Origin: Jeotgalibacillus aurantiacus
GTDB lineage: Bacteria; Bacillota; Bacilli; Bacillales; Jeotgalibacillaceae
DNA: 64,000 nt
Reading direction: 5' to 3'
Assembly (NCBI RefSeq): GCF_020595125.1
Contig: NZ_JACNMS010000002.1
Span: forward strand, 372,001-436,000
The position numbers were made by a program, and so were the translations under genes. How positions within the stretch are numbered: the stretch's first letter is position 1; each line of letters starts with the position of its first letter. Shown here in pieces: positions 21,395 through 29,757 of the stretch. The notes beneath the pieces are model-generated. The model saw only the letters and a program-made list of their open reading frames with translations. It was not told where the DNA came from and searched no databases.

Positions 21395-21509
21395 GTGCCG
21401 GGGCATTCCTTCGCTTTCCGCGGCCGCGCGGTGAGCCAGCTAGCGCTTCGCGCTACGCTGTCTCACCTGTCGCTCCTCTGCCGCAGGAGTCTCCGGAATG
21501 CCCCGGCAC
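21395..21509 (-). repeat. Modular palindromic intergenic element, copy 2
   Basis: 115 bases that fold almost completely on themselves. The outer 15-base arms (21395-21409, GTGCCGGGGCATTCC, and 21495-21509) are perfectly complementary. Inside are the core hairpin GGTGAGCCAGCTAGCGC paired with its near complement ending CTCACC (about 21430-21467) and the family boundary segments CTTCGCTTTCCGCGG and CTGCCGCAGGAGTCTCC. This is the minimal form, without the extra 126-bp module. Confidence 0.85.
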
Positions 21510-21673
21510 TTCAAGTGTAACTTCCCACTTAATTGTTTATTATTAGGAGTATAAAAACCCTTTAGAATTAAAGATCAAAAAAAATGATATTGTTTATCGA
21601 GTTCCTTATACAATCAAAAGATTGTGTGATTTCTCAGTGATTGAGTTTTTTATAATGTACATAAATTATCATA

Positions 21674-21784
21674 GGGCCTGGACCATCCGGAGACTCCTGT
21701 GGCGGAAAGGGACAGGTGAAACCATTGTGCGAAGCACAAGGGGTTCACCGCCCGGCCACGGAAAGCGCAGGATGGTCCAGGCCC
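21674..21784 (+). repeat. Modular palindromic intergenic element, copy 3
   Basis: 111 bases in opposite orientation to copy 2. Perfect 15-base outer arms (21674-21688, GGGCCTGGACCATCC, and 21770-21784) differ from copy 2 at five positions yet remain fully paired. The inner part (GGAGACTCCTG, GACAGGTGAAACC, GTGCGAAGCAC, GGTTCACCGCCCGGCC, GGAAAGCG) follows the same plan with its own changes. Minimal form. Confidence 0.85.
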
Positions 21785-23512: not shown

Positions 23513-25309
23513 TTATGATGTTTCTTCCATCGCCTCAGCTTTATTGTTTTGAAGTAAATACATTTTGTGATACAGTCCACCGAGCTTTAACAGCTCCTGG
23601 TGATTTCCACGTTCTACGATCTCACCCTGGTGCAGCACAAGAATCTGATCTGCATCCTGAATCGTAGACAGTCTGTGTGCAATTGCGATCGTGGTTCTGC
23701 CTTCACGCATCTTCTTTAAGGCAAGCTGAATTGCTTCTTCTGTTTCCGTGTCAATGTTGGCAGTCGCTTCATCAAGGATTAAAATATCAGGATTGGAGGC
23801 AATGGTTCTGGCAAACGCGATCAGCTGTCTCTGACCACTTGAGAATGCAGCACCTCTTTCCACCACTTTATGCTCATATCCGTCCTCAAGCTGGTCAATA
23901 AAGTGATGAGCCTGGACAAATTCACTTGCTGCCCGTATTTCCCGGTCGGTTATATCCGGATTAAAGAGTCTGATGTTACTGCTGATGGTCCCGTAAAACA
24001 AAAACGGATCCTGCAGAACGAGGCCGGTTTTTTTACGTAAATCCTCAATCGCATATGACTTAATGGAATGTCCATCGATCAGGATTTCTCCCTTTTCAAA
24101 CTCATAAAAACGCATAAACAAATTAATAATGGAGCTTTTCCCACTGCCTGTATGTCCTACAAGCGCAATGGTTTCCCCCGGATTTGCCGTAAAAGAAATA
24201 TTTTTTAATACATCCTTTTGTCCATCGTAAGAAAAGGTGACATTTTTGAATTCGATTTTCGCTTCAGGGTTGTGATGGACTGATTTTTCAGGGTGTGCGG
24301 GTGAGAGCTCCTGATGATCCATCAGTTTGAACACCCGTGAGGCGGCGACAATGGCCTGCTGAAAAATGGATAATCGCTGCATCACCTGATTAATCGGTTC
24401 GAAAAAGCGGTCCAGATACTGAACGAATGCATAGAGAACTCCGACTTCAATACCCCCTGCAATATCAAGAGAGGTAAAGCCGAAATAGCTGAGCACAAGC
24501 ATGAGTGCCAGTATATAGACTAAATCAATAGCTGGTCGCAGCAGTAGCCCGTCAATTTTAATATTTTTCATACCCGCACGGTAATGCTGCTCATTAATGT
24601 CCTGGAATTCATCAGACACTCTCTGTTCCTGCCTGAATACCTGAATGATCCCCATTCCGGAAATGGATTCAGCAAGCTTTGCATTTAACTGACTTAACCG
24701 CTCTCTGAGGTCCTGATAAAAGACTGAGCTGTACTTACGGTATGTCCGGATGATCACAAATAGAACCGGCAGAATGAGCAGGCAAAAGAAAGCCAGCCTT
24801 ACATTCAAAATGAACATGGCAATAAAAATACCGACCAGCAGAAAGGCACTTTGTATAAATCCGACAAGCACACTAACAAACATTTCCTTAATGGCTTCTG
24901 TATCGTTTGTTACCCTTGAAACGATCGAGCCGGCAGGTGTTTGATCAAAATAACTGGCACCAAGGTCCTGAACATGCTTAAACACATCAATACGAAGCTG
25001 CTGAATAATATTCAGCGCGATCTGTTGAAATTTCAACAGCTGAAAATACGTAATAAAGACGTTTCCGATCTGAATGACAATAAATGCTGATGCAAGTGCT
25101 GCGATTTCCTGAAACGGAAAAATACCCGGTGTGAGATAATCATCAATAAAAATCTTGATTAGAAAAGGTCCCGCCACTTCCCCGCCTATCATCAGAAGGA
25201 GAAGAACAAAGGCCAGAGCAATCGGCTTTTTAAAAGGAACGGTATAGGAAAGAAGGCGTTTTAATACCTTCCACTGATCTTTCCCTGTCAAGGTCTGCTG
25301 CTGCTCCAT
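23513..25309 (-). CDS. Heterodimeric ABC exporter subunit, BmrD/YheH-like
   Basis: Half-transporter of 598 residues: six-span exporter domain (about 1-320) and nucleotide-binding domain (about 345-585). Walker A GHTGSGKSS and the catalytic glutamate in ILDEATANID are intact, but the signature is FSSGQ instead of LSGGQ. This is the partner that keeps the glutamate in BmrC/BmrD-type asymmetric exporters. Its ATG shares one base with the stop of the upstream partner (TAATG), so the pair is translationally coupled. Drug or peptide export is likely; substrate unknown. Confidence 0.88.
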   Translation of the reverse strand: MEQQQTLTGKDQWKVLKRLLSYTVPFKKPIALAFVLLLLMIGGEVAGPFLIKIFIDDYLTPGIFPFQEIAALASAFIVIQIGNVFITYFQLLKFQQIALNIIQQLRIDVFKHVQDLGASYFDQTPAGSIVSRVTNDTEAIKEMFVSVLVGFIQSAFLLVGIFIAMFILNVRLAFFCLLILPVLFVIIRTYRKYSSVFYQDLRERLSQLNAKLAESISGMGIIQVFRQEQRVSDEFQDINEQHYRAGMKNIKIDGLLLRPAIDLVYILALMLVLSYFGFTSLDIAGGIEVGVLYAFVQYLDRFFEPINQVMQRLSIFQQAIVAASRVFKLMDHQELSPAHPEKSVHHNPEAKIEFKNVTFSYDGQKDVLKNISFTANPGETIALVGHTGSGKSSIINLFMRFYEFEKGEILIDGHSIKSYAIEDLRKKTGLVLQDPFLFYGTISSNIRLFNPDITDREIRAASEFVQAHHFIDQLEDGYEHKVVERGAAFSSGQRQLIAFARTIASNPDILILDEATANIDTETEEAIQLALKKMREGRTTIAIAHRLSTIQDADQILVLHQGEIVERGNHQELLKLGGLYHKMYLLQNNKAEAMEETS

Positions 25310-27063
25310 TATCGTTCCCCTCCTTTTTCGACAAGGTCTTCAAGCTGCTGCCTCATATACATCGTATAATAAAGTCCGCTTTTACCCATTAACTCCATAT
25401 GGGTACCGGATTCCGCCAATTCGCCCTGATCCAGAACGAGAATCAGATCAGCGTGTTCTACGGCACTGAGACGGTGCGCAGTGATGATGGTCGTTTTTCC
25501 TTTTCGTTTTTCTTTCAGACCTGTCAAAATGTCCTCTTCGGTTTTTGCGTCAACTGCAGACAGTGAGTCATCGAGGATGAGTACTTCGGGATTTGTAACA
25601 AGAGCTCTGGCGATTGATATACGCTGCTTTTGACCGCCGGACAAGGAAACCCCTCTTTCACCTACAACTGTTTCATAACCGTTTGTAAAACCGGTTATAT
25701 CATCATGCACCCTCGCAATCCGGGCTGCTTCTTCAAGAAGCTCTTCGGTCACGTCTGGTGCAGCAAAACGGATATTATCTTTTACAGACATTGAAAATAA
25801 AAAGTGATCCTGAGGTACATAGCCTATTGATTCTCTGAGCGCATGAAGATCATATGTTTTGATATCTTTACCGCCCATCCCGATAAACCCTGTGTACTGG
25901 TCTTCTTCACGCATGAGAAGCTTTAGGAGCGTCGTTTTTCCTGCCCCTGTCTTCCCGACAATTCCGAGTGTCTGACCACGTTTCAGCTCAAACTGAATAT
26001 TTTTTAATGTAGGTTTGTCAGTTCCACCATACGTAAATGAATCCAGCGCAAGCTGAATATCACCCTGGGGCGGATTCGATGTACTTCCTTCTTCATTTTT
26101 TATTTCCTGAGGGTGGCTCAGCAGAATATTAACACGCTCGTAGGATGCCCTCCCTCTCTCCACGATGTTAAACAGCCAGCCAAACGCAAGCATCGGCCAG
26201 ACTAAAAGTCCGAGATAGGTTGTAAAGGAGACGAGTTCACCAAGCGTCATTTCATCTGCTACAACCATTTGCGCACCAAAATAGATGGAAAGGAAGAAGG
26301 AAACACCGACAATGAATGTGATCGTCGGATCAAAAAGAGAGTCAACTCTTGCGACAGCGATATTTTTATCGACTACGCTTTTTGACAGCTGTCTGAATGA
26401 CTCAACATCTTCTTTTTCCTGTCCGAATGTTTTGATTACTTTTATGCCACTGATGCTTTCCTGTGTTTTGTCGTTAAGGTCGGAGAAAGCTTCCTGTGCA
26501 TATTTAAATCTTTTGTGCAGCATTCTGCCGTACAGGCTTGTAGACAGCGCCATAAATGGCATGGGAATGAGTGCAATCAACGTAAGTTTCCAATCGATGA
26601 GGATCGCCATTGCCCCTATGACAAACAATCCTGTTGCAAGGGAATCCACGAGAGTCAGAACGCCTGCTCCGGCTGTCTGCTGGATGGCTGACAGGTCGTT
26701 TGTAGCGTGCGCCATTAAATCCCCGGTTCTTCTGTTCTGGTAAAATTGTCTGGACATTTGTGTGAAGTGTATGAACAGTTTTTCCCTCATCTGCTTTGCA
26801 AGTTTGACAGCTGAGCCGAAGATCATAATTCTCCAGTAGTATCTGAGGACGTACATACCGAGACCGGATGCCAGCAGAAGCCCCATCCACAAGGCAAGCG
26901 TTTGTCCGGTCAATGTCTGATTTTGAATCAGATCGACGATGATTCCGATGACACGGGGTGGAACGAGCTGGAGTGCTGCTACAAACAGCAATAGTGTGAT
27001 ACCTGTTAAATACGCTTTCTTTTCCTGAATGAAAAACCATTTTAGATAGTAAAAAACAACCAT
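25309..27063 (-). CDS. Heterodimeric ABC exporter subunit, BmrC/YheI-like
   Basis: 584 residues: exporter membrane domain (about 1-310) then ATPase domain. Walker A GKTGAGKTT and signature LSGGQ are normal, but Walker B ends LILDDSLSAVD, with aspartate in place of the catalytic glutamate, the mark of the degenerate-site subunit in this class. The N-terminus (YLKWFFIQEKKAYL) lines up with BmrC/YheI. First gene of the two-gene operon; only a weak GGTG Shine-Dalgarno is seen. In B. subtilis bmrCD is induced by ribosome-targeting drugs through a leader peptide; I saw no such leader here. Confidence 0.88.
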   Translation of the reverse strand: MVVFYYLKWFFIQEKKAYLTGITLLLFVAALQLVPPRVIGIIVDLIQNQTLTGQTLALWMGLLLASGLGMYVLRYYWRIMIFGSAVKLAKQMREKLFIHFTQMSRQFYQNRRTGDLMAHATNDLSAIQQTAGAGVLTLVDSLATGLFVIGAMAILIDWKLTLIALIPMPFMALSTSLYGRMLHKRFKYAQEAFSDLNDKTQESISGIKVIKTFGQEKEDVESFRQLSKSVVDKNIAVARVDSLFDPTITFIVGVSFFLSIYFGAQMVVADEMTLGELVSFTTYLGLLVWPMLAFGWLFNIVERGRASYERVNILLSHPQEIKNEEGSTSNPPQGDIQLALDSFTYGGTDKPTLKNIQFELKRGQTLGIVGKTGAGKTTLLKLLMREEDQYTGFIGMGGKDIKTYDLHALRESIGYVPQDHFLFSMSVKDNIRFAAPDVTEELLEEAARIARVHDDITGFTNGYETVVGERGVSLSGGQKQRISIARALVTNPEVLILDDSLSAVDAKTEEDILTGLKEKRKGKTTIITAHRLSAVEHADLILVLDQGELAESGTHMELMGKSGLYYTMYMRQQLEDLVEKGGER

Positions 27064-27152
27064 ATTTTCACCAGACTTTTCTTATATAGTTTTGTTAACC
27101 TTACATATCGTACCAAATAAAATGGCGTGAGAGAAGGGTTTTTTGGTGGTCC

Positions 27153-27305
27153 GCAGTGGAAGGTGAATCATTTTCCAAGAATACAAAACCGCCTGGTGGC
27201 AAGCGAGCTTGCCACCCAGGCGGTTTTGTATTTTTGGAACCTTGCAGGCTCTTCCTGCAAGGCGTGTCAAACGGAGTTTGACACGAATGATTCACATTCC
27301 ACTGC
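27153..27305. repeat. 153-bp multi-arm palindromic element (closing stem plus three hairpins)
   Basis: Every base can be paired. A 20-bp closing stem (27153-27172 with 27286-27305, one mismatch) encloses three hairpins that touch without spacer: arm 1 27173-27239 (about 31 bp, one mismatch and one bulge, CGAG tip), arm 2 27240-27262 (9 bp, CTCTT loop) and arm 3 27263-27285 (10 bp, GGA loop). It lies between the yneF terminator and the start of the ABC exporter operon. It shares the plan, but not obvious sequence, with the other modular repeats of the window. Confidence 0.85.
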
Positions 27306-27318
27306 TATGTAAAATAAA

Positions 27319-27344
27319 AGCACTTTCTGTTAGCAGAAAGTGCT
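27319..27344. terminator. Terminator downstream of yneF
   Basis: An 11-bp stem (AGCACTTTCTG and complement), 4-base loop, with TTTTATTTT following on the minus strand. Confidence 0.75.
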
Positions 27345-27354
27345 GTTCATTTTT

Positions 27355-27576
27355 TTATTTTTGCTGTTGCTTATTCATAGCACTCATCATCTGATTGATT
27401 TTCTTCTGCGACGGTTTCATTCCCATCTGCATCATCATCATGCGAAGCATTTGCTCATTGATTGGCGGGTTCTTTTTGAGATACGTCATCATGTATTTAC
27501 GTGCGATGAAGAATCCAAGTGCGACTCCGGCAAGCAAAGCTACAACAATTAATACAATTGCAAGCCATAATTCCAT
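27355..27576 (-). CDS. yneF: UPF0154 membrane protein YneF
   Basis: 73 residues: one N-terminal membrane span (about 4-24), then a basic, methionine-rich cytoplasmic part with [21 protein letters not shown], the signature of the YneF/UPF0154 family. An AGGAGG-type Shine-Dalgarno precedes the ATG. It lies downstream of tkt as in B. subtilis. Function unknown. Confidence 0.93.
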
Positions 27577-27690
27577 CTTATATTGCCTCCTAATTCATAC
27601 TTTCATTAAAAGTGTACAAGAACCGATTAAAATATACAATGATTTATTACATTTTGATATCGAAGTATAGCAATTTAAATAAAAAAAGTT

Positions 27691-27722
27691 GTGCCACGGG
27701 TAAGCTCGGCTACCCGTGGCAC
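27691..27722 (-). terminator. Terminator of tkt
   Basis: A perfect 12-bp stem (GTGCCACGGGTA and complement) with 8-base loop, followed by AACTTTTTTT on the minus strand. Confidence 0.8.
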
Positions 27723-27753
27723 GAAAGATTAAAGCATTATTTGCTTCTGCAGA

Positions 27754-29757
27754 TTATTTGTTTAGAAGGTTTTTTACGCGATTTACAACGTTATCCACTG
27801 TAAATCCGTATTCTTTCAGTACGGTTCCGCCTGGAGCAGATGCACCAAATGTTGTGATACCAAGGATATCCCCTTCGTCACCCGTGTAACGCTCCCAGCC
27901 TAGTGGCGTTGCCATTTCAACTGCAAGACGCTTTTTCACTGATTTTGGAAGAACAGACTGTTTGTACTCATCTGACTGCTTTTCAAAGCGGTCCCAGGAT
28001 GGCATGGAAACAACTGCTACATCAATATTCTCTTCTTTTAAAGCCTGCTGGGCTTCAAAAGCGAGACCGACTTCAGATCCTGTTGCAAGGATCAATGCAT
28101 CTGCTTCTTCTTTTTGTGCAGGTGAGACGGTATAAGCACCTTTTTTCACACCTTCGTATGCTGTTTCTGCTGTGTTAGGAAGCGTTGGCAACCCTTGTCT
28201 TGTCAACACAAGTGCTGTAGGGTGATCCTTCGCTTCAATCGAAAGTTTCCACGCTGCAGCCACTTCGTTTCCATCAGCTGGACGCACAACAGAAAGGTTT
28301 GGCATTGCACGAAGTGATGGCAGCTGTTCGATCGGCTCGTGAGTCGGACCGTCTTCACCTACTGCGATACTGTCGTGAGTGAAGACATATGTGACAGGAA
28401 CACCCATCAACGCTGACAGACGAACTGCCGGACGTACATAATCACTGAATACAAAGAACGTTCCACCATAAACGTGAAGTCCACCATGAAGGGCCATTCC
28501 GTTCAGTGCTGCGCCCATCGCAAATTCACGTACGCCAAACCAGATGTTTCGGCCTGCAGGCGTTTCAGCTGTGAAGTCATCTTCTTCCTTCATCATTGTG
28601 TTGTTAGATCCTGCAAGGTCTGCAGATCCCCCAAATAATGAAGGTACTGTTTTGGCAATCGCATTTAACACTTCCCCTGAAGAAGCACGGCTTGCAAGTG
28701 ACTTCCCTTCTTCATATACCGGGATTTCTTTATCCCAGTCTGCAGAAAGAGTGCCGTTAATGGCATTTTCAAGCTCTTCAGCAAGCTCTGGGTAAGCATT
28801 TTTATAAGCTGCAAATGCTTCGTTCCATGCGGCTTCGTTTTTCTGACCGTTTTCAACTACTAGCTCTTCAAAACGGCTGTATACTTCTGAAGGAACGTGG
28901 AATGGTTCGTGTTCCCACTTGTACGCTTCTTTTGTTAATGAAGATTCTTCATTACCAAGTGGAGCACCGTGAACTTTTGACGTACCGGCACGGTTTGGAG
29001 ATCCGAATCCGATAACTGTTTTAATTTCTATCATTGTTGGACGGCTTGTGTCTGCTTTTGCTTCTTTGATTGCTGCAGCAACTTCATCAAGATCATTTCC
29101 GTCCTCTACGCGGATATACTGCCAGTTGTAAGACTCAAAACGTTTCTTTACACTTTCAGAGAACGAGCGATCCAGATCTCCGTCGAGTGAAATATCGTTT
29201 GAATCATATAATACGATCAGCTTGTCCAATCCAAGATGTCCAGCCAGTGAAGCTGCCTCTGATGAAACCCCTTCCATCAAATCGCCATCTCCACATAATG
29301 TGTAAGTATAATGGTCAACAATGTGATGACCTTCTTTGTTATATTTCGCCGCTAAATGACGCTCAGCCATCGCCATCCCTACAGACATACCGATCCCTTG
29401 TCCAAGTGGACCCGTAGTCGCTTCTACACCTTTAGTATGTTTATATTCAGGGTGTCCAGGTGTTTTCGAACCCCACTGACGGAAATTCTTGATTTCTTCC
29501 ATTGGAAGGTCATAGCCTGAAAGATGCAGAAGGCTATATAAAAGCATGGAACCATGTCCTGCAGATAGCACAAAGCGGTCACGGTTGAACCAGTCCGGAT
29601 TTTTCGGGTTATGGTTCATAAACTGTGTCCATAGCGTGTATGCAAATGGAGCAGCCCCCATTGGAAGTCCCGGGTGACCCGAATTCGCTTTATCGATCGC
29701 ATCGATCGATAATGTCCGGATTGTGTTAATTGCCAATTGATCAGTTTGTGTAAACAT
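27754..29757 (-). CDS. tkt: Transketolase
   Basis: Thiamine-diphosphate enzyme that moves two-carbon units between sugar phosphates in the pentose phosphate pathway. 667 residues, family-typical. Visible: substrate histidine in [10 protein letters not shown] (near 28), TPP/metal motif GDGDLMEG then DSNDISLDG, and the pyrimidine-domain segments [12 protein letters not shown] and [18 protein letters not shown]. Start [14 protein letters not shown]. Followed by its own hairpin; neighbours ynzC and yneF as in B. subtilis. Confidence 0.98.

Follow-up and report, generated by a model that had tools for sequence, protein, structure and literature searches.

A cloverleaf-shaped foldback element of Bacillales is probably transposon cargo that is kept palindromic by template switching

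The DNA analyzed here (the window) is a stretch of 64,000 nucleotides from Jeotgalibacillus aurantiacus (contig NZ_JACNMS010000002.1, positions 372,001 to 436,000). It contains a 153-bp non-coding element at positions 27153-27305. The first-pass annotation, made from the sequence alone, had placed this element between the yneF terminator and an ABC exporter and had seen no coding capacity in it. Both statements hold: the ORFs and a hairpin at 27311-27352 define the neighborhood, and the ORFs overlapping the element are mechanical only (61-64 aa). The locus is organized as follows.

23513-25309 and 25309-27063, minus strand: ABC-exporter ORFs, left of the element (ORF list)
27153-27172, no strand: closing stem, left arm (sequence and fold)
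27173-27239, no strand: hairpin A, the long arm, tip CGAG (fold and family alignment)
27240-27262, no strand: hairpin C, CCTTGCAGG type, tip CTCTT (fold and alignment)
27263-27285, no strand: hairpin B, CGTGTCAAAC type, tip GGA (fold and alignment)
27286-27305, no strand: closing stem, right arm (sequence and fold)
27158-27300, minus strand, which reads B-C-A: match to covariance model R1 (E 1.1e-21; the window copy is one of the 51 copies from which the model was built)
27311-27352, minus strand: terminator-like hairpin of yneF, flanking and outside the element (sequence)
27355-27576, minus strand: yneF-like ORF, right of the element (ORF list)

At its core, the element has three hairpins arranged as a trefoil on a closing stem, so that four stems meet in a four-way junction. 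This junction is the minimum-energy fold of either strand and leaves no base unpaired at the branch point. As RNA, the two strands fold with −107.4 kcal/mol (z −17.5) and −103.7 kcal/mol (z −16.8), and as DNA the plus strand folds with −72.9 kcal/mol (z −18.2). None of 200 shuffles folded as well in any of these three folds. The four-stem plan of the first-pass annotation is thus confirmed by RNA and DNA folds (z about −17), and sequence and folding likewise agree with its parts, a 20-bp closing stem with one mismatch (27153-27172 against 27286-27305, 95% complementary) and three abutting hairpins with the tips CGAG, CTCTT, and GGA. Its further claim that every base fits this plan was slightly overstated, as the large hairpin 27173-27239 shows a small irregularity close to its tip, with one bulged base in the RNA fold.

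A blastn search with the element returned only the window copy, its self-complement, and a copy in another member of the genus (G004), which gave the impression of a single-copy curiosity; this impression was overturned by covariance model R1. A match in genome G029 led to a divergent second member of the family, and this member, used as a query, matched 20 of the 397 genomes of the order. The relatives found in this way fold into the same four-stem plan, with a closing stem near GATTTTTGGCTCATT...AATGAGCCAAAAATC, a CGTGTGAAAC-like hairpin B, a hairpin C of the form CCTTTCAGC...GCTGAAAGG, and a long hairpin A whose sequence varies from copy to copy with its pairing kept. Hairpin C of the window is of the CCTTGCAGG type; in the majority of the relatives found it is CCTTTCAGC.

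A pattern search with hairpin C yielded at least 120 stretches in named genomes. The matches listed are mainly from Bacillaceae (Niallia, Alkalihalobacillus, Rossellomorea, Oceanobacillus, Gracilibacillus, Peribacillus, Robertmurraya, Pseudalkalibacillus, and Bacillus), and a few are listed under Actinomadura, an Eggerthellaceae MAG, Chryseobacterium, and a Sphingobacteriales MAG. In two of the stretches (L132, titled Chryseobacterium sp. ISL-80, and L151), hairpins resembling TTTTTGGCTCATT and CTTTTCAGC lie close to the pattern match; their assembly is possibly mislabelled or contaminated. After four of 124 pattern matches had been dropped for lying too near the end of a stretch, folding placed three branches within a closing stem in 106 of the 120 matches analyzed. 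Seven of these 106 folds have no unpaired base at the junction and 15 have one, so the fully paired junction of the window copy is an exception in the family. In whole genomes, the exact hairpin-C pattern occurs 47 times in the Niallia genome, 28 times in A. macyae (Alkalihalobacillus macyae), and 10 times in Oceanobacillus sojae, and the reversed-pattern control 0 times. It is absent from the window's genome because the hairpins there differ from the pattern.

Model R1, with at most eight candidates scored per genome, matches 67 of the 397 genomes of the order and 18 of its 135 genera at E ≤ 1e-5. In the window's genome it finds three loci, namely the window copy, C2:581571-581713, and C1:978962-979103. 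In a phylum-wide sample, three of 398 genomes match, all three from the same order. The element therefore belongs to a dispersed non-coding family that is limited to one order in the genomes sampled, and the further copies with the four-stem plan that the first-pass annotation had asked for do exist. Rfam gave no family at the gathering score for window positions 26000-28500 and the loci of 10 relatives; the miRNA names returned are hairpin look-alikes. Among possible vehicles, the plasmids searched gave no relevant match, and phages gave only three 24-base matches (Enterococcus phages, E 0.5) that we read as chance. Viral contigs contained no match to the exact hairpin-C pattern, although this pattern does not capture the variant found in the window.

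To describe the base pairs, we used an alignment of 51 copies (A3), comprising 48 pattern-picked copies and those of the window, G004, and G029. The 14 of the 120 analyzed matches without three branches were left out, and 48 of the rest were taken. As the copies were picked with the exact hairpin-C pattern, the near constancy of hairpin C in this alignment is partly by construction. Hairpin A is the arm that varies most. Under the consensus structure 94.3% of the cells are paired, compared with 77.4% after shuffling and at most 47.4% after sliding; selecting copies that fold inflates this share, but not the kinds of pairs. The stems covary among the homologues, which was one of the checks set in the first-pass annotation: 41 of 53 pairs show two-sided changes (26.3 after shuffling). 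Counted by cells, 439 carry two-sided changes (119 after shuffling) and only 40 one-sided changes, the pattern expected of a palindrome maintained by template switching. Stability beyond that of 200 shuffles, covariation, and copies in other genomes together refute a lone chance palindrome, as the first-pass annotation had argued.

The kinds of pairs were counted in 50 copies, with arms containing indels left out. Of the 2596 pairs, 2446 are Watson-Crick, 37 G-T, 24 A-C, and 89 other mismatches, many of which are the outermost T-T of hairpin A. Paired changes thus seldom pass through G-T, and the excess of G-T over A-C (37 versus 24, P = 0.12) defines no significant sense strand. In the closing stem alone, G-T outnumbers A-C by 16 to 6, but the selection of these copies relied on a folding program in which G-U counts as a pair.

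In the A. macyae genome, GGCTATGTTAG... and ...TAACATAGCC flank the closing stem. The end pattern has 90 matches in this genome compared with three for the control, and the exact GGCTATGTTA/TAACATAGCC end pair is present in 19 of 20 stretches, which had been picked by that end pattern. The 8 bp on either side of these 19 elements are identical in 15 and agree at seven positions in four. Among all 27 distinct short elements that have an exact end pair, not all of which contain the full cloverleaf, the flanks match at 8/8 positions in 19, at 7/8 in six, and at 6/8 in two, whereas no more than six positions match in a control shifted by 1-3 bases. In A. macyae, the cloverleaf therefore forms the core of a MITE that is bounded by GGCTATGTTA ends and duplicates 8 bp of target DNA. 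The longer end pattern GGCTATGTTA-N8-TGTTGAT is spread over 76 genomes out of the 299 examined in the order, and its reversed-pattern control has no match among those listed. The window's genome has no exact match to it, and none was seen in the flanks of the element.

Ends of the same type delimit a 2.7-kb transposon in another genome (L249:208-2916, G210:C2), which has the 8-bp repeat AACAAAAT on both sides. Its transposase is split into two overlapping frames, the second of which matches PF12762 (DDE_Tnp_IS1595; 8e-11, 42.6 bits, cut-off 27). Judging from the shared ends and the duplication length, the A. macyae elements were probably moved in trans by an IS1595-family transposase; no transposase was found within the 20 unpaired-end loci examined in six named genomes. 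The suggestion in the first-pass annotation that a host enzyme moves a small mobile element consequently gains support from the A. macyae relatives (ends, 8-bp duplications, and a transposase on a like-ended transposon), but not from the window copy, which lacks such ends. The 2.7-kb transposon also carries an acyl-CoA thioester hydrolase gene. Elsewhere in the window, positions 21395-21706 contain overlapping GC-rich inverted repeats (arms of 30-34 nt, 77-79% complementary), and in another genome an 802-bp element (L250) with ends of the IS1595 type encloses a GC-rich foldback resembling them.

The IS1595-type frame is not the whole story, since the same core also occurs in other frames. Oceanobacillus copies have GAGCGTGTTCAAAAAGT ends, with 5-bp duplications recognized by eye in three of the eight shown (L077, L130, and L149), and a second group of Niallia copies (frame 2) has ends around TATATATCC...CGACATA. 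Several copies from Rossellomorea have flanks in common but no recognizable ends, and are likely orthologues. In the window's genus, the copies are bare cores without frame ends. They probably represent fixed cores whose former frame was lost or never existed.

Orthologous places in the genus allow a comparison of individual copies. At the window's own place (locus 1), G004 carries the element between the same genes, 92% identical and inverted as a whole: the flanks of the window's genome (G000) and G004 are collinear, and the order of the hairpins is A-C-B in the window and B-C-A in G004. The element is present here in two of 12 genus members. An ABC exporter lies near yneF in four of the 12, two of which (G003 and G005) have no element there. 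Comparison with the sites of the 10 other genus members gave no exact empty site and no recognizable target duplication for the window copy because these sites are too diverged.

Locus 2 (C2:581571-581713; L289:1572-1714) lies between ileS-like and lspA-like genes, with orthologues in L291 and L293-L296. The element occupies this place in G000, G004, G007, G008, G009, and G011 (with a damaged hairpin B in G011), and G006 has a form that lacks hairpin A alone; nothing recognizable is found in five of the 12 genomes. Along the chromosome the hairpins read B-C-A in G000 and A-C-B in the five others, which identifies G000 as the inverted one. Locus 3 (C1:978962-979103; L290:1563-1704) is located beside rnpA and, going by the usual gene order only, presumably near the replication origin. 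It is occupied in G000 and G004 only, in equal orientation and without inversion. Between these two genomes the whole element is thus inverted at two of three loci, 1 and 2. Six of the 12 genus members have no match to model R1 at E ≤ 1e-5.

Between G000 and G004 at locus 2, 585 of 610 and 105 of 114 flanking columns are identical (about 92-96%), as against only 49 of 68 columns of hairpin A, which nevertheless remains paired in both genomes. Such strong divergence of hairpin A is not general, since 65 of 67 columns agree at locus 1. Where the whole element is inverted, individual arms do not always invert with it, as far as per-arm differences of just 1-4 bases can indicate. At locus 1, the unflipped alignment is the better one for hairpin A (65/67 versus 63/68 flipped) and the flipped alignment for hairpins B and C (22/23 each versus 20/23 and 19/23). 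At locus 2, hairpin C fits flipped (22/23 versus 20/23) and hairpin B unflipped (22/24 versus 20/24).

Several hairpin tips likewise occur in both orientations among otherwise like copies. In the six Niallia frame-2 copies, the tip of hairpin A is CTCG in four and the reverse complement CGAG in two, and the tip of hairpin B is GTCC in three, GGAC in two, and ATCC in one. The C tips of the Niallia genome (n = 47) include TGT 16 times and ACA once, TAT 12 times and ATA five times, and TCC four times and GGA once. In A. macyae, the C tip (n = 28) is TCT in 21 and AGA in two copies, and the A tip (n = 17) TGAA in 11 and TTCA in three. Two B tips show no such flips: in A. macyae none of 21 copies has the reverse complement of the modal CTCA (15/21), and in Oceanobacillus none of six copies has that of TCCC (3/6).

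Whole arms are also lost. Five A. macyae elements of 105-106 bp (L326, L327, L328, L329, and L331) consist of the closing stem and hairpin B without C and A; they lie in separate places, each with its own duplication. Other A. macyae elements of 35-157 bp are reduced further. Two of the short A. macyae elements have little beyond the two IS1595-type ends, L334 (35 bp) with flanking bases that match at 8/8 positions and L335 (54 bp) with 7/8.

We consider it probable that the cloverleaf is a foldback DNA element that travels as transposon cargo and is kept palindromic by template switching during replication, and that it is not a structured RNA. During replication, the single strand would fold at the palindrome, and the polymerase could switch template between the two arms. 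Such a switch would correct one arm from the other, resulting in perfect pairing with paired changes, and it would invert the spacer, resulting in flipped tips, flipped arms, and flipped whole elements. When a hairpin is skipped, an arm would be deleted cleanly at the junction. Template switching between arms may thus be the common cause of the inversions, flips, arm losses, and paired divergence. By correction of its arms, the palindrome would maintain itself as DNA, so that no RNA product is needed. Template switching between short inverted repeats is reported to homogenize the arms and to invert the spacers (PMC8604942), and compensatory changes and loop inversions have been attributed to it as well, including examples in bacterial rRNA (PMC8794818).

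The main rival of this cargo and template-switch explanation is independent movement of the core. The trefoil itself would be mobile, and an enzyme that recognizes the four-way junction or the hairpins would have brought it into unrelated MITEs and bare sites. The variety of settings argues for this, as the core is found in the IS1595 frame with 8-bp duplications, in the GAGCGTGTTCAAAAAGT frame of Oceanobacillus, in the second Niallia frame, and bare in the window's genus. We nevertheless regard it as unlikely: neither an empty site with a core-specific duplication nor an adjoining gene for such an enzyme was found, and the closing stem of IS1595-framed copies passes directly into the inner part of their ends (TGTTGAT-TTTTGG), pointing to joint evolution of core and frame. 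A related proposal, which we hold only tentatively, is a self-maintaining four-way-junction element that inverts at three nested levels (tip, arm, and whole element) through its own folding and whose core moves as a module between unrelated transposon frames and bare sites by means of an enzyme that reads DNA shape.

A structured non-coding RNA or RNA-level regulator, for instance an mRNA boundary element downstream of genes, would account for the highly stable RNA fold, the strong covariation, and the terminator next to locus 1. This reading, also entertained by the first-pass annotation, now appears very unlikely because both strands give the same type of fold, sister genomes can carry the element in opposite orientations, and the numbers of G-T and A-C pairs do not differ significantly (37 versus 24, P = 0.12); in addition, one-sided changes are rare (40 versus 439 cells), and Rfam returned nothing at the gathering score. 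Equally improbable in our estimation is a chromosomal cruciform that is bound by a protein and kept by selection for a nucleoid, replication, or origin function, with dispersal as a secondary effect. The persistence of bare copies at orthologous places (locus 2 in seven of 12 genus members, one without hairpin A) and the position of locus 3 beside rnpA are consistent with it, but copy number and places vary widely among genomes, six of 12 genus members have no match at E ≤ 1e-5, and hairpin A varies freely. From the DNA cruciform suggested in the first-pass annotation, DNA is retained as the level at which the structure acts, as indicated by the arm flips, clean arm losses, and few G-T intermediates; a binding protein was not found.

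The foldback and cargo explanation relates the family to several known systems. Like IS1595-family MITEs, the A. macyae elements are short and non-coding, with inverted ends and 8-bp target duplications, and their ends are common to a transposon with a DDE_Tnp_IS1595 domain (in another genome, with the gene split). Unlike these MITEs, the cloverleaf core is a four-way-junction trefoil that also occurs outside the IS1595 frame, and the window copy lacks their ends. The bcr1-bcr18 repeats of Bacillus cereus are likewise dispersed, intergenic, structured repeats of Bacilli; they are reported to measure 100-400 bp, to be confined to the B. cereus group, and to be associated with a TTTAT motif (PMC6542083), and a conserved structure coded differently is reported for Bcr1 (PMC2267715). 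It is by these descriptions, not by sequence, that we set them apart from the cloverleaf. REP/REPIN sequences with their RAYTs share the palindromic, non-autonomous, dispersed character. They are described as short hairpins, occurring singly or in pairs, that carry a GTAG/CGTC-type tag (PMC3733652), and on that description the cloverleaf differs by its three hairpins on a closing stem. With the quasipalindromes shaped by template switching (PMC8604942, PMC8794818), the family shares arm homogenization, paired changes, and loop inversion, but it is dispersed in bacterial genomes and inverts at several nested levels.

No paper describing the cloverleaf element was found among the titles and abstracts of the open-licence literature. 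Large cloverleaf repeats may be mentioned in the Halobacillus halophilus genome paper; they were not found in the literature searched, which contains few subscription papers. Given that no Rfam family and no paper within this scope was found to describe the element, and that similar repeats may have been noted in H. halophilus, we rate the family as a MITE or foldback element rather than as categorically new.

Strong covariation is usually taken as proof of a functional RNA. The cloverleaf family shows strong covariation, and yet its behavior is that of DNA, with inversions, clean losses of arms, and no significant sense strand. Its copies are natural repeated markers that can be compared across sister genomes, and they could serve to measure how hairpins form, templates are switched, and palindromes are repaired in living bacteria. 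In addition, the family may hide an enzyme that recognizes four-way junctions.
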